Shown: positions 3,460-9,147 of the stretch, in pieces | How the letters are laid out: each line of letters opens with the position of its first letter | Numbering within the stretch: position 1 is the stretch's first letter | Source: a virus | DNA length: 32,938 bases | IMG/VR virus record: IMGVR_UViG_3300043548_000077 | Coordinates: 1 to 32,938 of that record | Reading direction: 5' to 3' (one strand) | Position numbers and translations under genes: made by a program | Notes under the pieces: generated by a model | The model's input: the letters and a program-made list of their open reading frames with translations, nothing else | Told to the model about the DNA's origin: nothing | Databases searched by the model: none

Positions 3460-5337
3460 TTAGTGCGTTTCGGCATAATTTTTTCCGATCTGCACATCCA
3501 CGTCTAGCAGGACATTTAGCTTAAGTTTGTCGTTAGTCTTCTTGATAGACCCCTTAAGAATGTCTGCGATATACTCGGTCACTTGTTCCTTCACATAGAA
3601 GCCAACCTCGTCGTGAAACTGCATGGCGATCTTAATGCCAGCCTTGCGACAGAACGACAACCAAGTGTCAAAGCAATAGACACCTGTAGATTGGTTAGCA
3701 GTAGAGAAACGATCCTTTTCAGATCGTAGGTTGTGCCAGAACTTAGAGACAGGGTTCTGTAGCCACATAGAGTTTCCCACAAGTTTGACCTTGAAACTCT
3801 CTGTTGCTTTGACCACAGAATGATTCCGTTCCCAGTAAGCCTTGATGATTGCTGTAGCCTCTTTAGGGGTCACACCAATCTCTCTGGCAAGTTTAGCTGC
3901 ACCTACACCGTAGACGCAACTGTAGTTCGCAGCCTTGTACTTGCTACGAATAGGTTTCAGGTTAATCTCCCCTCTTGCATGTTTCGCTGCATCTTCTGCG
4001 GTGATAGCACCTGCAAACTCCGCAAGATTAAGATGGGGGTCAAATCCCGGTAGGCTCATCTCTGCCACATAGGCAGGATCGTAGGGCTTCATGTAGTGGC
4101 GCTTTGTGGTATCCTCTAGGGAAACCATGTCAGACCCCACCAGATCGAAGCCATCAGGGGCAATCAAGCAACCCCTAATCTCTGCGCCCCAAGGCTTGTC
4201 CACCTTCGGGATATTAGCTAGAGGCTTGGCATGTTTGAACCTGAACGTGTTGGTCAAGCCTGCCACAGAAGCAACAAGCCAACCATCTGTATGGCTGTCG
4301 AGCATAGCCTTGAAGAAGCCCTTACGATGTCGAATAACAGTCAGACCCTCTAGAATTTCCACGCCGGGGGCTTTGTCCTTGAGGCTAGTGACACTGGCAC
4401 ACAGTTGACCACCTTCTGCGTGGGTGGCTGGATAACGTACTTGGGCAATGCGCTTCTCCACACCAGTCTGCTTGTTCTTGTCGTATTTCCACGTCTGGGG
4501 TTCCCAGCCAAGTCTGTAGAGCCAATCCTTGACCTGAGCATCGCTGTTGGGATTAGCGTCTTCCCAGTCAACGACCATTTCCACCGTATCCCCCTCGAAG
4601 TTAGAGGGCAGTTCAGATTGGAAGAGAATATTGAGCCACTTCTTCCAAGCCTCGGTCATGGTCCCATCCTTCTTGACCTGTTGTGCAGGCTTCTTGAAGG
4701 TCTTGTAGACAGGTTGCTTAGGCATAGCCTTGACCAGTTCCTCAAACTTCTCTTGCTGTAGACGTTCCAGTTCATCGTAGTTCTTCTGTGCGCGTTCTAC
4801 ATCAAGACGGACACCCACCTCTTCCGCTTCCCTTGCACAGTCCATCTTGAACCCAAGATAGTCTACAATGCGAACAGCCTCATCCCAGTTGCCATACAGC
4901 TTGAGGAGTTTACGCTCTAGGTCTTTCCAGAGACGCCAGTTGATCTTAACGTCCTCTACACAGCGATGGGTATACTCTTCGTAGGACAGGCTCGACCAAT
5001 CCTCGACCTTGGGCTTAGGGACACCGTATTCGATGCCATAGCCCTCTAGACCATGCTTGTCTCGTTCAAAGTTGACGTACCAAGACAAGGCCAGACTGTC
5101 GATGAACTTTGTGTGGTTCAGGTTCAGCCCAAGGATTTTGTTGAAGGTAGGAAGATCGTGCCGGATAGAGTTGTGGGCAACAATCCGGGTATCTTCTTCC
5201 AACAACAGAGACTTCATAACTTCGTAGTCATTGGTGTGGTGGTAGGTTTCCCCATCATCAGTCCAAGCAACCACATGAAGTTTAGTAGCCTCTTTCCACA
5301 GACCATCACTTTCACTATCCAGCACGATGATTTTCAT
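3460..5337 (-). CDS. DNA polymerase, family A, T7-like with 3'-5' exonuclease
   Basis: A 625-residue replicative polymerase. N-terminal proofreading domain: DSESDG (D7, E9), VAHNSIRHD (N56 to D61) and CVEDV (D129). Polymerase domain: motif A VGSDMVSLED (D403, E408); motif B RSKYKAANYSCVYG (R464, K468, Y472, Y476, spaced as in T7 polymerase); motif C HDE (575-577). The protein ends in histidine (NYAETH), as T7 polymerase does. It is shorter than T7 gp5 (704). The Exo III tyrosine of the Y-x3-D motif is replaced by arginine (R125). It overlaps the upstream 65-residue gene by 4 bases. It would act with the gp4-like primase-helicase encoded just upstream. Confidence 0.97.
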   Translation of the reverse strand: MKIIVLDSESDGLWKEATKLHVVAWTDDGETYHHTNDYEVMKSLLLEEDTRIVAHNSIRHDLPTFNKILGLNLNHTKFIDSLALSWYVNFERDKHGLEGYGIEYGVPKPKVEDWSSLSYEEYTHRCVEDVKINWRLWKDLERKLLKLYGNWDEAVRIVDYLGFKMDCAREAEEVGVRLDVERAQKNYDELERLQQEKFEELVKAMPKQPVYKTFKKPAQQVKKDGTMTEAWKKWLNILFQSELPSNFEGDTVEMVVDWEDANPNSDAQVKDWLYRLGWEPQTWKYDKNKQTGVEKRIAQVRYPATHAEGGQLCASVTSLKDKAPGVEILEGLTVIRHRKGFFKAMLDSHTDGWLVASVAGLTNTFRFKHAKPLANIPKVDKPWGAEIRGCLIAPDGFDLVGSDMVSLEDTTKRHYMKPYDPAYVAEMSLPGFDPHLNLAEFAGAITAEDAAKHARGEINLKPIRSKYKAANYSCVYGVGAAKLAREIGVTPKEATAIIKAYWERNHSVVKATESFKVKLVGNSMWLQNPVSKFWHNLRSEKDRFSTANQSTGVYCFDTWLSFCRKAGIKIAMQFHDEVGFYVKEQVTEYIADILKGSIKKTNDKLKLNVLLDVDVQIGKNYAETH

Positions 5338-5531: not shown

Positions 5532-5703
5532 TCTGCAAATCCTTTACTGCTTGTTGTTGTCCCCGAACCCAGCCACCACCAAAAGCCCAGCGCAAGTCAA
5601 CAAGACTTACCCCTCGGTTCTCTGCAAACTCCCTGCGGCTCTCAGTGTCAGTCATAGGTTCATCCAACCAATCTTCAAAAGCCTTATCGGTTCTGTTCAC
5701 CAT
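5524..5703 (-). CDS. Hypothetical protein, 59 aa, between helicase and polymerase
   Basis: Found by hand translation: ATG at 5703, stop at 5524-5526. The peptide starts MVNRTDKAFEDW, includes FAENRGVSLVDLRWAFGGG and ends QAVKDLQNV. A clear AAGGAG lies five to six bases before the ATG, inside the last codons of the primase-helicase gene, which it overlaps by 7 bases; it overlaps the next gene by 8. It fills what would otherwise be the only sizeable gap in this operon. Function unknown; no recognised motif. Confidence 0.8.
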   Translation of the reverse strand: MVNRTDKAFEDWLDEPMTDTESRREFAENRGVSLVDLRWAFGGGWVRGQQQAVKDLQNV

Positions 5704-7304
5704 CCTACTCCTTTTTCTGTCAGGGTGAAGGTTTCTCCATCAAAGAGAAGTTCACCAGAGTTTCCTTCAAGACCACACGGACGGTTCTTCTTAACCACAA
5801 GCCGTGTAGTGTTACGTTCTAGCATATCGCTTGCCTCTTTGTCACGCTCTAAATCAATAATGACAGAGGCACGTTGACCAATCATCCGACAATACTTGAA
5901 GTCACCATTGTCGTTTGTGTGACCAATCGTAACGATACCAACATTCAGATCAGCCGCCAGCTTAGACAGACGAACAGACAGTTCCGCCAACAAGGCTTCT
6001 TTGCTTTCGTCACTGGATACTGTCACAACGTCTTGGATAGGCTCAAAGAACACATACTTGCAGCCATACACCTGTGTCAGAACCCTGATCTGTTCAATCA
6101 GTTCATCAGCACCATCTTCTTCACGCAGGTGAAACTGCATGTACCCTGTGTTGTTCGTGATGTATCGGATAGCCTCTTCTACATCCTGCAACCGACCTTT
6201 CTCTTGGATCAAATCCTTACGGGTAAGGTTGTCCTTGAGGTAGTACGAAACAACACCAAGAAGTGAACGTAACTTAGTCTCTTCCAAGTGCCATGTCGCA
6301 AACTTCACGTCAGGATAGTTCTTGATGAAGTTATATTCCAGATAGCGCATGAACTCTGATTTACCAATGCCAGTAGGTGCCTTGATAACAGTGAAGTGTC
6401 CCTGCATTAGTCCAAGGATTTTATCGTCCAGCCCCATGATCCCAGTAGGAACATAGGAGTGGTCAGGGGTATCATGCAACAGTTCTAGAAAGTCTTCTTC
6501 TGTAGCATAGATATTGTCAGGGGTGAACAGACCTGCACTGAACCATGCCTTAGAGAAACTCTCAGAAGCATCAGCCATCAAGAAGTCATTGGCATCCTTG
6601 TAGACATCGTGAGGCACACGATAGACACGACCGGGGAACAAGTGCATCAAAGAGATAGCAAACTTCTCTGCTTTGTCGTCAGTATCAAGAGACAGGTAAA
6701 TCTTCTTGAACGACCCCAACCAGTCTTTGCAGTTCTCTAGCAGACGCTTGTTCGGTGTGGCAGAAGGTAGCGACACAAAGGGATACTTCTGACCCATCAT
6801 CTGATAACCAGACATGGCATCAAGTTCACCCTCAGTGATGGTCACAGCCTGTGCTGATCCAGCAGGGAACTTGTCCATACCAAACAGCTTGTCAGACTTG
6901 AAACCTTTACCAGTGAAGAACTCCTTGGGGAACACCCTAGTCTTAGTGGACCCATCAGGATAGGTGTAGGTATGCTTAAGCGGTACTTCATCTTCCACAT
7001 AAGTCTTTACACCATAGAACTCCATAGTTCTTGCTGTGACCTTACGGTGACCATTGTGCATCCACACACCCTGTTCATCGTCTACCCTTTGGGCAGGCTC
7101 TACAAGTTTAATCACGGCTCTGTCCTTCTTTAGAGGATAAGTCTTAGATGCCCAGTCAAACACTTTATTCCCACTGCTGGGATAAGCTGTATGACAACTA
7201 TGGCAGTGACCAATCTGGTGCTTAGTGTTCCAAGAAAAGGCGTCAGACGATCCACACTTTTCGTATGGGCAGGGTTGATGGATCAGTTCTACTTGTTCAT
7301 ACAT
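5697..7304 (-). CDS. Primase-helicase, T7 gp4-like
   Basis: A 535-residue bifunctional replication protein. Order: zinc ribbon with C12, C17, C34, C37; a Toprim primase core with TEGELDAM (E159), SLDTDD (205-210) and KDANDF; then a RecA/DnaB-type helicase with Walker A APTGIGKS (309-316), HLEET (339-343), VFFEPIQD around E421 at the Walker B position, GHTND (H462) and an arginine-finger-like KKNRP (R508). It should unwind the fork 5' to 3' as a ring and lay primers for the polymerase. The N-terminal zinc ribbon is closely repeated as a separate gene immediately upstream (7289-7480), which it overlaps by 16 bases. AGGGGA precedes the ATG. Confidence 0.96.
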   Translation of the reverse strand: MYEQVELIHQPCPYEKCGSSDAFSWNTKHQIGHCHSCHTAYPSSGNKVFDWASKTYPLKKDRAVIKLVEPAQRVDDEQGVWMHNGHRKVTARTMEFYGVKTYVEDEVPLKHTYTYPDGSTKTRVFPKEFFTGKGFKSDKLFGMDKFPAGSAQAVTITEGELDAMSGYQMMGQKYPFVSLPSATPNKRLLENCKDWLGSFKKIYLSLDTDDKAEKFAISLMHLFPGRVYRVPHDVYKDANDFLMADASESFSKAWFSAGLFTPDNIYATEEDFLELLHDTPDHSYVPTGIMGLDDKILGLMQGHFTVIKAPTGIGKSEFMRYLEYNFIKNYPDVKFATWHLEETKLRSLLGVVSYYLKDNLTRKDLIQEKGRLQDVEEAIRYITNNTGYMQFHLREEDGADELIEQIRVLTQVYGCKYVFFEPIQDVVTVSSDESKEALLAELSVRLSKLAADLNVGIVTIGHTNDNGDFKYCRMIGQRASVIIDLERDKEASDMLERNTTRLVVKKNRPCGLEGNSGELLFDGETFTLTEKGVGW

Positions 7305-7480
7305 GCTGTTCCCCTACTGGGTATACCTCTTGCCCAATCCATAGCCCCCTTCTTTTTATTGGGGTAAGTGTTGCAACAAGAGAAGCAAAGGCCGATTTGT
7401 GTTTCAGGTACCCACGAAAAACCGTCTTTTGATCCACAGTCTTCATAGGGGCAGGGTTGGTAAGTTAAGACTTCACGCAT
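7289..7480 (-). CDS. Stand-alone zinc-ribbon protein, paralog of primase N-terminus
   Basis: A 63-residue protein that is essentially one zinc ribbon (CPYEDCGSKDGFSW, then GLCFSCCNTYP) followed by a short MDWA tail. It aligns along its length with residues 7-52 of the adjacent primase-helicase (QPCPYExCGSxDxFSW, QIGxCxSC, DWA), so it is a tandem duplication of the primase zinc-binding domain. In gp4-type primases that domain recognises the template and helps hold the primer. The two genes are in different frames and overlap by 16 bases, so this is not simply a broken N-terminus. It may act in trans with the primase or compete with it; function is inferred only. Confidence 0.82.
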   Translation of the reverse strand: MREVLTYQPCPYEDCGSKDGFSWVPETQIGLCFSCCNTYPNKKKGAMDWARGIPSRGTACMNK

Positions 7481-7483
7481 CTT

Positions 7484-7696
7484 TCACCAAATGCAGTTGT
7501 ATTTCTGTTTTTCAACAGAGCCATCGTTGTAGTGAACTTCAGTCTTGTAGCACTCTCCCCAACGAATCCTCTCAAGGAAGTTTTGGTCAAACTCGATTTC
7601 ATCTTCGAACCAAAATTCAAATTTACTTGTAGGGTGACGACAGAAAAGCCCCCAAGCCACAGGAACTTTTTCTACAGTTTCAGAGGTTTTAGGCAT
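7484..7696 (-). CDS. Hypothetical protein, 70 aa
   Basis: Not recognised. Aromatic and acidic, probably mostly beta (FEFWFEDEIEFD, CYKTEVHYNDGSVEKQKYNCIW), with three cysteines but no CxxC pair. AGGAAG lies eight bases before the ATG, inside the end of the preceding gene, which it overlaps by 8 bases. It ends three bases before the zinc-ribbon gene. Co-transcription with the replication genes is clear; the role is not. Confidence 0.78.
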   Translation of the reverse strand: MPKTSETVEKVPVAWGLFCRHPTSKFEFWFEDEIEFDQNFLERIRWGECYKTEVHYNDGSVEKQKYNCIW

Positions 7697-7896: not shown

Positions 7897-8061
7897 TCAC
7901 ATCTCCATTTTGAAGTAGAGCGTGTACAGAACACTCCCATTATGCTTCTCTCGCAGGATAGTCACAAGTTCCCAACCTACATCACCCAGCTTATCCAGCA
8001 TTGGGTGTCCCGGAGCGTTCCATGTCTGTTCTACATGGTATTTGAACTTCTTCTCGCTCAT
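7897..8061 (-). CDS. Small DUF4177-like protein, 54 aa
   Basis: Starts MSEKKFKYHVEQTW and ends LYTLYFKMEM. The core LDKLGDVGWELVTILRE followed by a strand resembles the DUF4177 pattern (short helix, GWELV, then a beta strand), a small fold of unknown function found in bacteria and phages. The ATG at 8061 has GGAGGAG just upstream and overlaps the previous gene by 4 bases (ATGA); an extended frame to 8127 lacks this support. The family call is from the pattern only. Confidence 0.72.
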   Translation of the reverse strand: MSEKKFKYHVEQTWNAPGHPMLDKLGDVGWELVTILREKHNGSVLYTLYFKMEM

Positions 8062-8249
8062 GTCTTCTCCTCCTTCACATTCGCCCGCAGATACAGCCGC
8101 TTCGACCCGGCCCCGCAGGTCGGGCATTTGGTTTCACGGACCAGCTTGCTCAGCTTCTTCACGTCCATCGGGAAGACCGCATCGGGGGTGCTGAAGTTGG
8201 TGTCGCAATCTCCGCAGCGGAAGTGCATGCGCTTGTCTAGGTCGGTCAT
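8058..8249 (-). CDS. Zinc-ribbon protein, 63 aa
   Basis: Two CxxC knuckles, CGDC (residues 12-15) and CPTC (42-45), about 26 residues apart, form a probable zinc ribbon; the tail is basic then acidic (KRLYLRANVKEEKT). GGGAGAG precedes the ATG. It overlaps neighbours by 4 bases on each side. This gene and the next three upstream are visibly richer in G and C than the replication genes, which fits a separately acquired block. DNA or RNA binding is possible, but no function can be assigned. Confidence 0.8.
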   Translation of the reverse strand: MTDLDKRMHFRCGDCDTNFSTPDAVFPMDVKKLSKLVRETKCPTCGAGSKRLYLRANVKEEKT

Positions 8250-8701
8250 GTCTTCTCTCCCTCAATCTCGGCCAGCGTGGCTCGGGCGGCATATTTGATT
8301 GCCAAGTGCGACGGCGGATAGTCTGCCTCACAGTCGGCTTCGATCAACCGCAACGCCTCCACCGCCTTCGCCAGCTTGGCCTCAAGCTCACGATAAGCCT
8401 CTGTCCCGATCCTGCCCATCTTGTCGTATGCGTCCCGGTATTTCTCACAGGTTGCCAGCTTGGCTTCACAACGACCCCACTGTTCCTCTACGTGTTCTGC
8501 ACGTCTCCATGCTTCATCACGCTCGGCGGTTAGTTTTTCATTAGCCTCAGCAAGCCGATCAGAAACAGACGACTGATCTTTGAGGGCTTGTTGGAGTTGC
8601 TCGATGCGGTCGGAGCTTTCTAATGCAATCTGCCGTGCCTCGTTTGGCCCTGTCGCCTCGGCTACATCACGCAGCCGCTTCACCAGTTCTTCGTCAGTCA
8701 T
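8246..8701 (-). CDS. Coiled-coil protein, tandem paralog A (151 aa)
   Basis: Starts MTDEELVKRLRDVAEATG and continues as long heptad-like helices (DRIEQLQQALKDQ, SDRLAEANEKLTAERDEA, LEAKLAKAVEALRLIEAD), so an extended coiled coil is likely. It is a paralog of the adjacent 8698-9147 gene: both begin M-x-DEELVKRLR, share DRIEQL and LEAKLAKAV-x-ALR, and end in a helix with LAEIEG. At DNA level a 29-base stretch is identical (8358-8386 versus 8828-8856), and a 27-base one near the 5' ends (8670-8696 versus 9116-9142). It resembles the loosely conserved Ead/Ea22-type accessory proteins of phages, without known function. Confidence 0.85.
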   Translation of the reverse strand: MTDEELVKRLRDVAEATGPNEARQIALESSDRIEQLQQALKDQSSVSDRLAEANEKLTAERDEAWRRAEHVEEQWGRCEAKLATCEKYRDAYDKMGRIGTEAYRELEAKLAKAVEALRLIEADCEADYPPSHLAIKYAARATLAEIEGEKT

Positions 8702-9147
8702 CCCTTCCCTCCTTCAATCTCGGCCAGCAGGGCGCGGGCGATTTTACCAAAATCTGTGCTTCCGAGACCCCAAGGGCCATCACTTGGCAGGCCGTATCTA
8801 TTTTCGTCCGCATAGAACCGCAGCGCATCCACCGCCTTCGCCAGCTTGGCCTCAAGGTCGGCCATTGCAGCCTTGTGGATGCTCCACGCAAAGTCGGGCT
8901 GGCCATACCGTGCAATGTTCACTTCACGACCAAGCATCTCGTTCTTGGCGGTCAGGGCTTCATTAATCGCAACAAGTTGCTCGATGCGGTCGGCGCGGAC
9001 GTAAACAACATCCATGCTGTATTGCTTTTCCCACTCACTCGGTGGCAAGTCTGGGTCAAGGAACACAAACTCGGGCGCTGTGTTGGGGTCTGCGTATTGA
9101 TTGCTTCGAAGTTCCCGCAGCCGCTTCACCAGTTCTTCGTCACTCAT
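8698..9147 (-). CDS. Coiled-coil protein, tandem paralog B (149 aa)
   Basis: Paralog of the next gene with a different centre: between the shared MSDEELVKRLRE start and the shared C-terminal helices it carries an inserted segment (TAPEFVFLDPDLPPSEW, then VVYVRADRIEQL) and a DENRYGLPSDGPWGLG loop near the end. It overlaps both neighbours by 4 bases. The G+C-rich codons match its paralog. Mosaic divergence in the middle with conserved ends suggests recombination between such cassettes. Function unknown. Confidence 0.83.
   Translation of the reverse strand: MSDEELVKRLRELRSNQYADPNTAPEFVFLDPDLPPSEWEKQYSMDVVYVRADRIEQLVAINEALTAKNEMLGREVNIARYGQPDFAWSIHKAAMADLEAKLAKAVDALRFYADENRYGLPSDGPWGLGSTDFGKIARALLAEIEGGKG

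Follow-up and report, generated by a model that had tools for sequence, protein, structure and literature searches.

A free-standing primase zinc-binding domain encoded beside a complete T7 gp4-type primase-helicase and its possible action in trans

The primase-helicase locus

The window, the whole 32,938-bp stretch of an IMG/VR virus record analysed here, encodes a primase-helicase of the T7 gp4 type on the minus strand (535 aa, positions 5697–7304). The protein matches PHROG 239 (DNA primase/helicase, E 2.6e-91), scores above the Pfam cut-offs for DnaB_C and Toprim_2, and has T7 gp4 as its best solved relative (6n7i, E 9.6e-24). Polymerase/TOPRIM and helicase domains are both present in this one chain. 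The nearest named relatives of the primase come from Roseobacter phage CRP-6 and the cobaviruses ICBM2, CRP-5 and CRP-4 (48–56% identity). By sequence comparison, the primase's own N-terminal zinc-binding domain (ZBD) covers residues 5–53 (7146–7292, minus strand). In the public records of CRP-6 (L001:4001-4124) and CRP-9 (L005:3001-3154) the primase is started downstream of the beginning of the zinc domain, and therefore most of that domain is unannotated there.

Directly before the primase gene lies a small ORF of 63 aa (7289–7480, minus strand) that starts with ATG and has cysteines at residues 10, 15, 32 and 35. The ORF call, its homology and a zinc-ribbon model mark it as a free-standing ZBD gene. 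It is read in a different frame from the primase and overlaps the primase start by 16 nt (7289–7304, minus strand). The overlap is 8 nt in two related contigs, L007 and L008, and 4 nt (ATGA) in a third, L025. A Shine-Dalgarno-like AGGGGA for the primase sits inside the small gene (7310–7315, minus strand; anti-SD duplex −6.4 kcal/mol). The small gene has a Shine-Dalgarno-like sequence of its own, GGTGA (7484–7488, minus strand; −5.8 kcal/mol), which overlaps the stop codon of the upstream ORF and stands at the boundary of the stronger quartile among 85 ATGs of the same strand. A scan for promoters and terminators around the small gene gave background level. Small gene and primase are probably translated together.

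The upstream ORF (70 aa, 7484–7696, minus strand) belongs to the same upstream module as the small gene: the two occur together in the window, L007 and L008, and not in L025. Relatives of the 70-aa ORF were found in L007 and L008 only. Further upstream, another 63-aa ORF resembles a zinc ribbon (8058–8249, minus strand; Zn_ribbon_8 E 4e-4, under the Pfam cut-off). Two adjacent paralogous ORFs (8246–8701 and 8698–9147, minus strand) both start with M(T/S)DEELVKRLR and are 36% identical (E 7e-11). Pieces of this pair recur in relatives in different orders.

The small ORF is a zinc-binding domain and nothing more

The earlier note described a 63-residue protein with its own start, in another frame, that repeats residues 7–52 of the primase and keeps all four cysteines. 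ORF call, BLASTP and alignment agree on this description. Residues 5–50 of the small ORF align without gaps to residues 7–52 of the neighbouring primase-helicase, with 25 of 46 positions identical (54%). At E = 1e-18 (BLASTP, single comparison) the match is not due to chance. C10, C15, C32 and C35 fall into cysteine columns that are invariant in 65 of 65 aligned zinc domains (62 picked from 87 diverse ZBDs, plus three small-ORF copies). In a tree of 136 sequences the small ORF is nested among primase ZBDs.

Profile libraries hardly recognize it. The small ORF has no PHROGs match and only a sub-threshold Pfam match, to PF08273 (Zn_Ribbon_Prim), where it scores 10.3 bits and the gathering score is 23. 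The adjacent, undoubted primase also falls below the cut-off (12.9 bits). Hence the PF08273 model misses this branch, and the small ORF is not assigned to the family.

The homology ends where the domain ends. In L007 and L008 it extends up to the WA-x-x-YP segment, the conserved closing segment of the ZBD in the primases compared here, and the ORF stops soon after with a tail reading ...DWAREVYPVGEQHV, which gives the L007 form a length of 61 aa. Thus the small ORF comprises the whole zinc domain and nothing else. It contains neither a polymerase/TOPRIM nor a helicase domain, its end coincides with the domain boundary, and it is not itself a primase. In the window, a loss of 2 nt after DWAR (7328–7331, minus strand, from the alignment) changes the tail: the last 12 residues are frameshifted relative to L007 and L008. 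The zinc ribbon is untouched by this frameshift.

AlphaFold2 models the small ORF as a zinc ribbon with a mean pLDDT of 78 (82–90 over residues 1–50). The best PDB match of this model is the T7 primase fragment 1nui, at Foldseek rank 1 with a weak E of 0.22. Other T7 gp4 entries follow at ranks 3, 4 and 6, again with weak scores, as expected at 50 residues. VIA-align superposes the model on T7 primase with a Z of 3.2 (49 residues, rmsd 7.1), and unrelated zinc proteins score little below (Z 2.1–2.3). A sequence search of the PDB with the small-ORF profile returned noise only (a tau entry; Bacillus primase 1d0q, E 2.4).

The gene is rare and patchy

A sample of 216 distinct IMG/VR contigs with related primases (188, and 28 further ones among L219–L250, told apart by contig name) was collected among the matches listed. 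A ZBD is present in 194 records, 183 of which extend at least 300 nt upstream of it. The ZBD profile detects a complete second, free-standing ZBD in 3 of the 216 contigs among the matches listed (L007, L008 and L025), in addition to the window. Hence the tandem that the earlier note suggested looking for does occur in relatives, rarely. One further contig of the 216 among the matches listed, L046, has a partial, fused copy. There (3968–4465, plus strand), 35 residues of the primase ZBD occur a second time upstream, nearly identical and joined to an unrelated reading frame.

Other collections gave no additional case. Searches with the small ORF as query found free-standing copies only in L007, L008 and L025. 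The INPHARED phage records yielded no free-standing copy: 19 records match up to E = 10, and the seven matches with E 6e-3 or better (H1–H7) are all primase N-termini. None of six fetched named phage records has a second ZBD copy. Searched with the alignment of the small ORF, 84,980 species genomes gave a single locus, L215 (34 residues, 47%, Polyangia MAG), which the zinc-domain profile did not confirm. Within open-access PMC texts, we found no report of a natural free-standing gp4-type primase ZBD.

The gene is patchy even among closely related phages. Of eight phages with nearly the same primase, three carry the gene, namely the window, L007 and L008, and it is missing from the other five, L009–L013. 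In these five the primase identity is 98%, and the DNA at the 5' end of the gene, as far as compared, is about 95% identical. Homology between the window and these five begins at 7313, 9 nt before the primase ATG. An assembly chimera is unlikely, since the same arrangement occurs in contigs from three other samples.

A foreign allele inserted at an exchange point

The earlier note called the small gene a duplicate of the neighbouring domain. An extra, free-standing and intact zinc domain is indeed there; the duplicate origin does not hold. In a tree of 136 ZBDs (FastTree) the free-standing copies form one clade with a local support of 0.998. Rather than joining the window primase, this clade falls with primase ZBDs of L047 and L029 (support 0.70) and with those of L017, L025 and L014 (0.88); inner supports are modest on a tree of about 50 residues. 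From this position among sister-lineage primase ZBDs it follows that the small gene is a foreign allele and not a copy of its neighbour, and together with the 54% identity it rules out a plain tandem duplication. Judged from these sequences, the small gene appears to have been taken from a sister phage lineage and is horizontally exchanged.

The insertion itself is visible in L025. Compared with its close relatives L014 and L015, both of which have the empty site, L025 contains a clean insertion of 185 bp that separates the upstream gene from the primase ATG and has ATGAGTGA at each end. The primase ZBD allele of L025 differs from that of the window primase. Hence one and the same free-standing gene is found in front of two different primase alleles.

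In the window, L007 and L008 the module seems to have arrived recently. Among these three, the small gene has 0 substitutions in 179–181 nt and the adjoining primase ZBD 9–12 in 175, a difference with Fisher P ≤ 0.0016; when the small gene is compared with the remainder of the primase gene, P is 0.01–0.06. The 70-aa upstream ORF diverges by 0.9%. This pattern points to a recent spread of the upstream module rather than a long co-residence. In selection tests the three copies therefore count as one. The primase zinc domain itself (7130–7304, minus strand) diverges by 5–7% among the three contigs, compared with 1.3–3.0% in the next 230 nt.

Related primases that hardly differ in the helicase part diverge strongly in the ZBD. 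In the helicase columns compared, L047, L017, L025, L014, L016 and L018 match the window at 95–99% identity; in the ZBD they reach only 49–55% (L047 is cut off in the helicase part). The identity table leaves aside 14 loci that failed the motif filter (ACP/KCP/RCP variants or truncated primases) and loci repeating a contig. The proteins of L025 and L029 are 95–100% identical from residue 60 on and 71% identical in residues 1–58. At four-fold sites their divergence is 0.47 in the ZBD (15 sites; counts range from 10 to 21 sites per ZBD) and 0.09 in the next 100 residues, so constraint alone does not explain the divergence of the ZBD. Phages whose helicase parts are almost the same thus appear to exchange whole ZBDs, and the small gene lies at the exchange point.

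Functional domain or by-product of recombination

Exchange at this site offers an alternative. The 5' end of an incoming primase gene may have been truncated and left upstream of the resident gene, where it is perhaps translated, inert and on its way to being lost. We regard such a recombination by-product as a serious possibility, yet one that we doubt. The exchange of primase ZBDs among relatives is what it would need, and the partial copy in L046, apparently an accident, is an example of such debris. The rarity and patchiness of the small gene, the frameshifted tail in the window and the longer branch of the small-gene clade fit it as well.

Sequence conservation speaks against it. Decay or loss of cysteines in relatives, the outcome that the earlier note had named against its own reading, is not what we found: all four copies are free-standing and intact in frame and zinc ribbon. 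The window type and the L025 type (represented by L007, whose tail is in frame, and L025) differ by 15 nucleotide changes over 53 codons. These lead to 6 residue changes, compared with 10.3 for random changes (P = 0.0097). When the same 15 changes are placed at random, about half of the trials produce a stop codon. For the first 41 codons alone there are 2 residue changes, 4.4 being expected (P = 0.053). This selection test amounts to one pair, because three of the four copies have no substitutions among them. Of the positions that never vary across 133 primase ZBDs, nine fall inside the small ORF of the window, and it retains every one. The invariant Tyr that follows the WA motif is still present in L007, L008 and L025 but has been lost in the frameshifted tail of the window.

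At several alignment columns the small proteins have residues that are absent from all 133 primase ZBDs: K or E in place of Ser at column 15, V at column 21 and an extra Cys at column 33. In the tree they lie at a mean distance of 2.6 from other ZBDs, against 1.9–2.2. The unusual residues and the longer branch would also fit relaxed constraint. For an inert by-product, neither the low number of residue changes between the two types (P = 0.01) nor the occurrence in two backgrounds of a free-standing form that has its own start, ends in a similar way and carries a ribosome-binding site for the primase is expected. On this one comparison, a functional domain with changed constraints fits better than a pseudogene.

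A possible alternative reading head for the primase

The ZBD of T7 primase reads the GTC start site (available part of PMC9198812), and its template contacts are S27, F29, D31, H33, F35, Y37, K41 and W42 (available part of PMC10557236). Seven of these align with S24, N26, I31, H33, H35, T39 and Y41 of the window primase, in a loose alignment that leaves F35 unmatched. At these positions the small protein carries S, V, I, L, F, N and Y and so differs from the window primase at 4 of 7: N to V, H to L, H to F and T to N, at the places of T7 F29, H33, Y37 and K41. All four copies combine a kept zinc ribbon with presumed template-contact positions unlike those of the neighbouring primases.

According to the part of PMC10557236 available to us, the primase domains of Arabidopsis Twinkle can be swapped with those of T7, and the ZBD brings its template preference along. 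When the Twinkle ZBD is purified separately and supplied in trans, the polymerase domain regains template-dependent synthesis. In the gp4 ring, the ZBD and the polymerase domain of different subunits cooperate (same source). Because of these swaps, the rescue in trans and the cooperation between subunits, a co-translated free ZBD could serve as an alternative reading head.

Hence we tentatively propose, with confidence just short of even, that the small ORF is an exchanged, free-standing ZBD that acts in trans on the primase-helicase and alters the choice or the efficiency of priming sites. A ZBD from a sister lineage would have been inserted just before the resident primase gene, where ZBDs already exchange. 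The small gene would be translated together with the primase. The free ZBD would then dock on the primase domains of the primase-helicase ring, beside the covalent ZBD, and act there as an alternative template-reading module. As a result, priming would start at further or different sites, or its efficiency would change. We infer expression of the small protein, binding to the primase and an effect on priming; the Twinkle experiment, an in vitro precedent (PMC10557236, available part), makes action in trans plausible. Along with the unusual residues and the longer branch, it counts against this reading that the gene is rare, that it is absent from the closest relatives L009–L013, and that its tail is variable and frameshifted in the window. 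The affinity in trans may also be low, because the small protein has no linker to the polymerase domain.

A bolder version treats the small protein as a mobile specificity subunit. An exchangeable ZBD would plug into the resident primase-helicase hexamer, reprogram the start sequences of Okazaki fragments and be kept through the diversifying exchange of ZBDs, a logic like that of an interchangeable sigma factor or HsdS subunit. We consider this unlikely.

Alternatively, the peptide could be incidental and the cassette kept for its effect on the primase, whose production would rise because its ribosome-binding site is stronger and its translation coupled. With the cassette, the Shine-Dalgarno sequence of the primase is indeed predicted to pair more strongly (−8.5 kcal/mol in L025 versus −3.3 in L014, which lacks it; −6.4 in L007 and the window versus −4.2 in L009, which lacks it), and the overlaps of 4–16 nt between small gene and primase would allow coupling. 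However, such a leader effect does not account for a zinc ribbon that is retained while most of the changes are synonymous, and we think it improbable. An inhibitor or decoy seems just as improbable to us. Here the free domain would occupy single-stranded DNA or a primase (the phage's own, that of a rival phage or the host DnaG) and block priming. The four contact-position residues unlike those of the neighbouring primase are what one would expect of a domain that docks and reads DNA differently, but the identity of the target is guesswork.

Finally, a programmed frameshift that yields a primase with two tandem zinc domains is very hard to credit: in L025 the primase frame is open back to an A-run in the small gene, where a −1 slip could fuse the two, but the window and L007 do not share one frame relation, and a stop in the primase frame directly before the primase start rules the fusion out for the window, L007 and L008.

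Comparison with known systems

The cobavirus-like phages (Lentibacter phage ICBM2 and Roseobacter phages CRP-4, CRP-5 and CRP-6) share the signature type of this zinc domain, CPYxxCGSxxxF...GxCxxC...YP. In those records, however, the domain is always the N-terminus of a primase, and no free-standing copy was found in them.

Like the zinc domain of T7 primase (1nui), the small ORF has four cysteines in zinc-ribbon spacing, and the primase next to it is a gp4 relative. Unlike that domain, it is a separate gene without a polymerase or helicase domain. The first cysteine pair is C-x4-C in the small ORF and C-x2-C in T7 primase, and most of the presumed template-contact residues differ between the two.

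T7 also makes gp4 with and without the zinc domain, as the earlier note stated and the available part of PMC9198812 documents. As with gp4A and gp4B (63 and 56 kDa), a single primase-helicase system here has unequal numbers of zinc and helicase domains. The means are opposite: in T7 an internal start produces a helicase that lacks the ZBD (same source), whereas here an extra ZBD is encoded.

The swapping of ZBDs between phages with nearly identical helicase parts raises the question why the template-reading module diversifies. If the small gene is inert, then it documents domain swaps that leave behind intact single-domain genes. If the free ZBD does act in trans, then a separate subunit, exchanged horizontally, would decide where a phage replisome primes. 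A close parallel is the split Twinkle of Arabidopsis, in which a free gp4-type ZBD restores template-specific priming in trans. Twinkle was split in a laboratory construct that used the enzyme's own ZBD (available part of PMC10557236), whereas the phage gene is a natural, second and foreign allele beside a complete primase. Acting in trans, it would be a natural version of a split-primase experiment otherwise known to us only from constructs.
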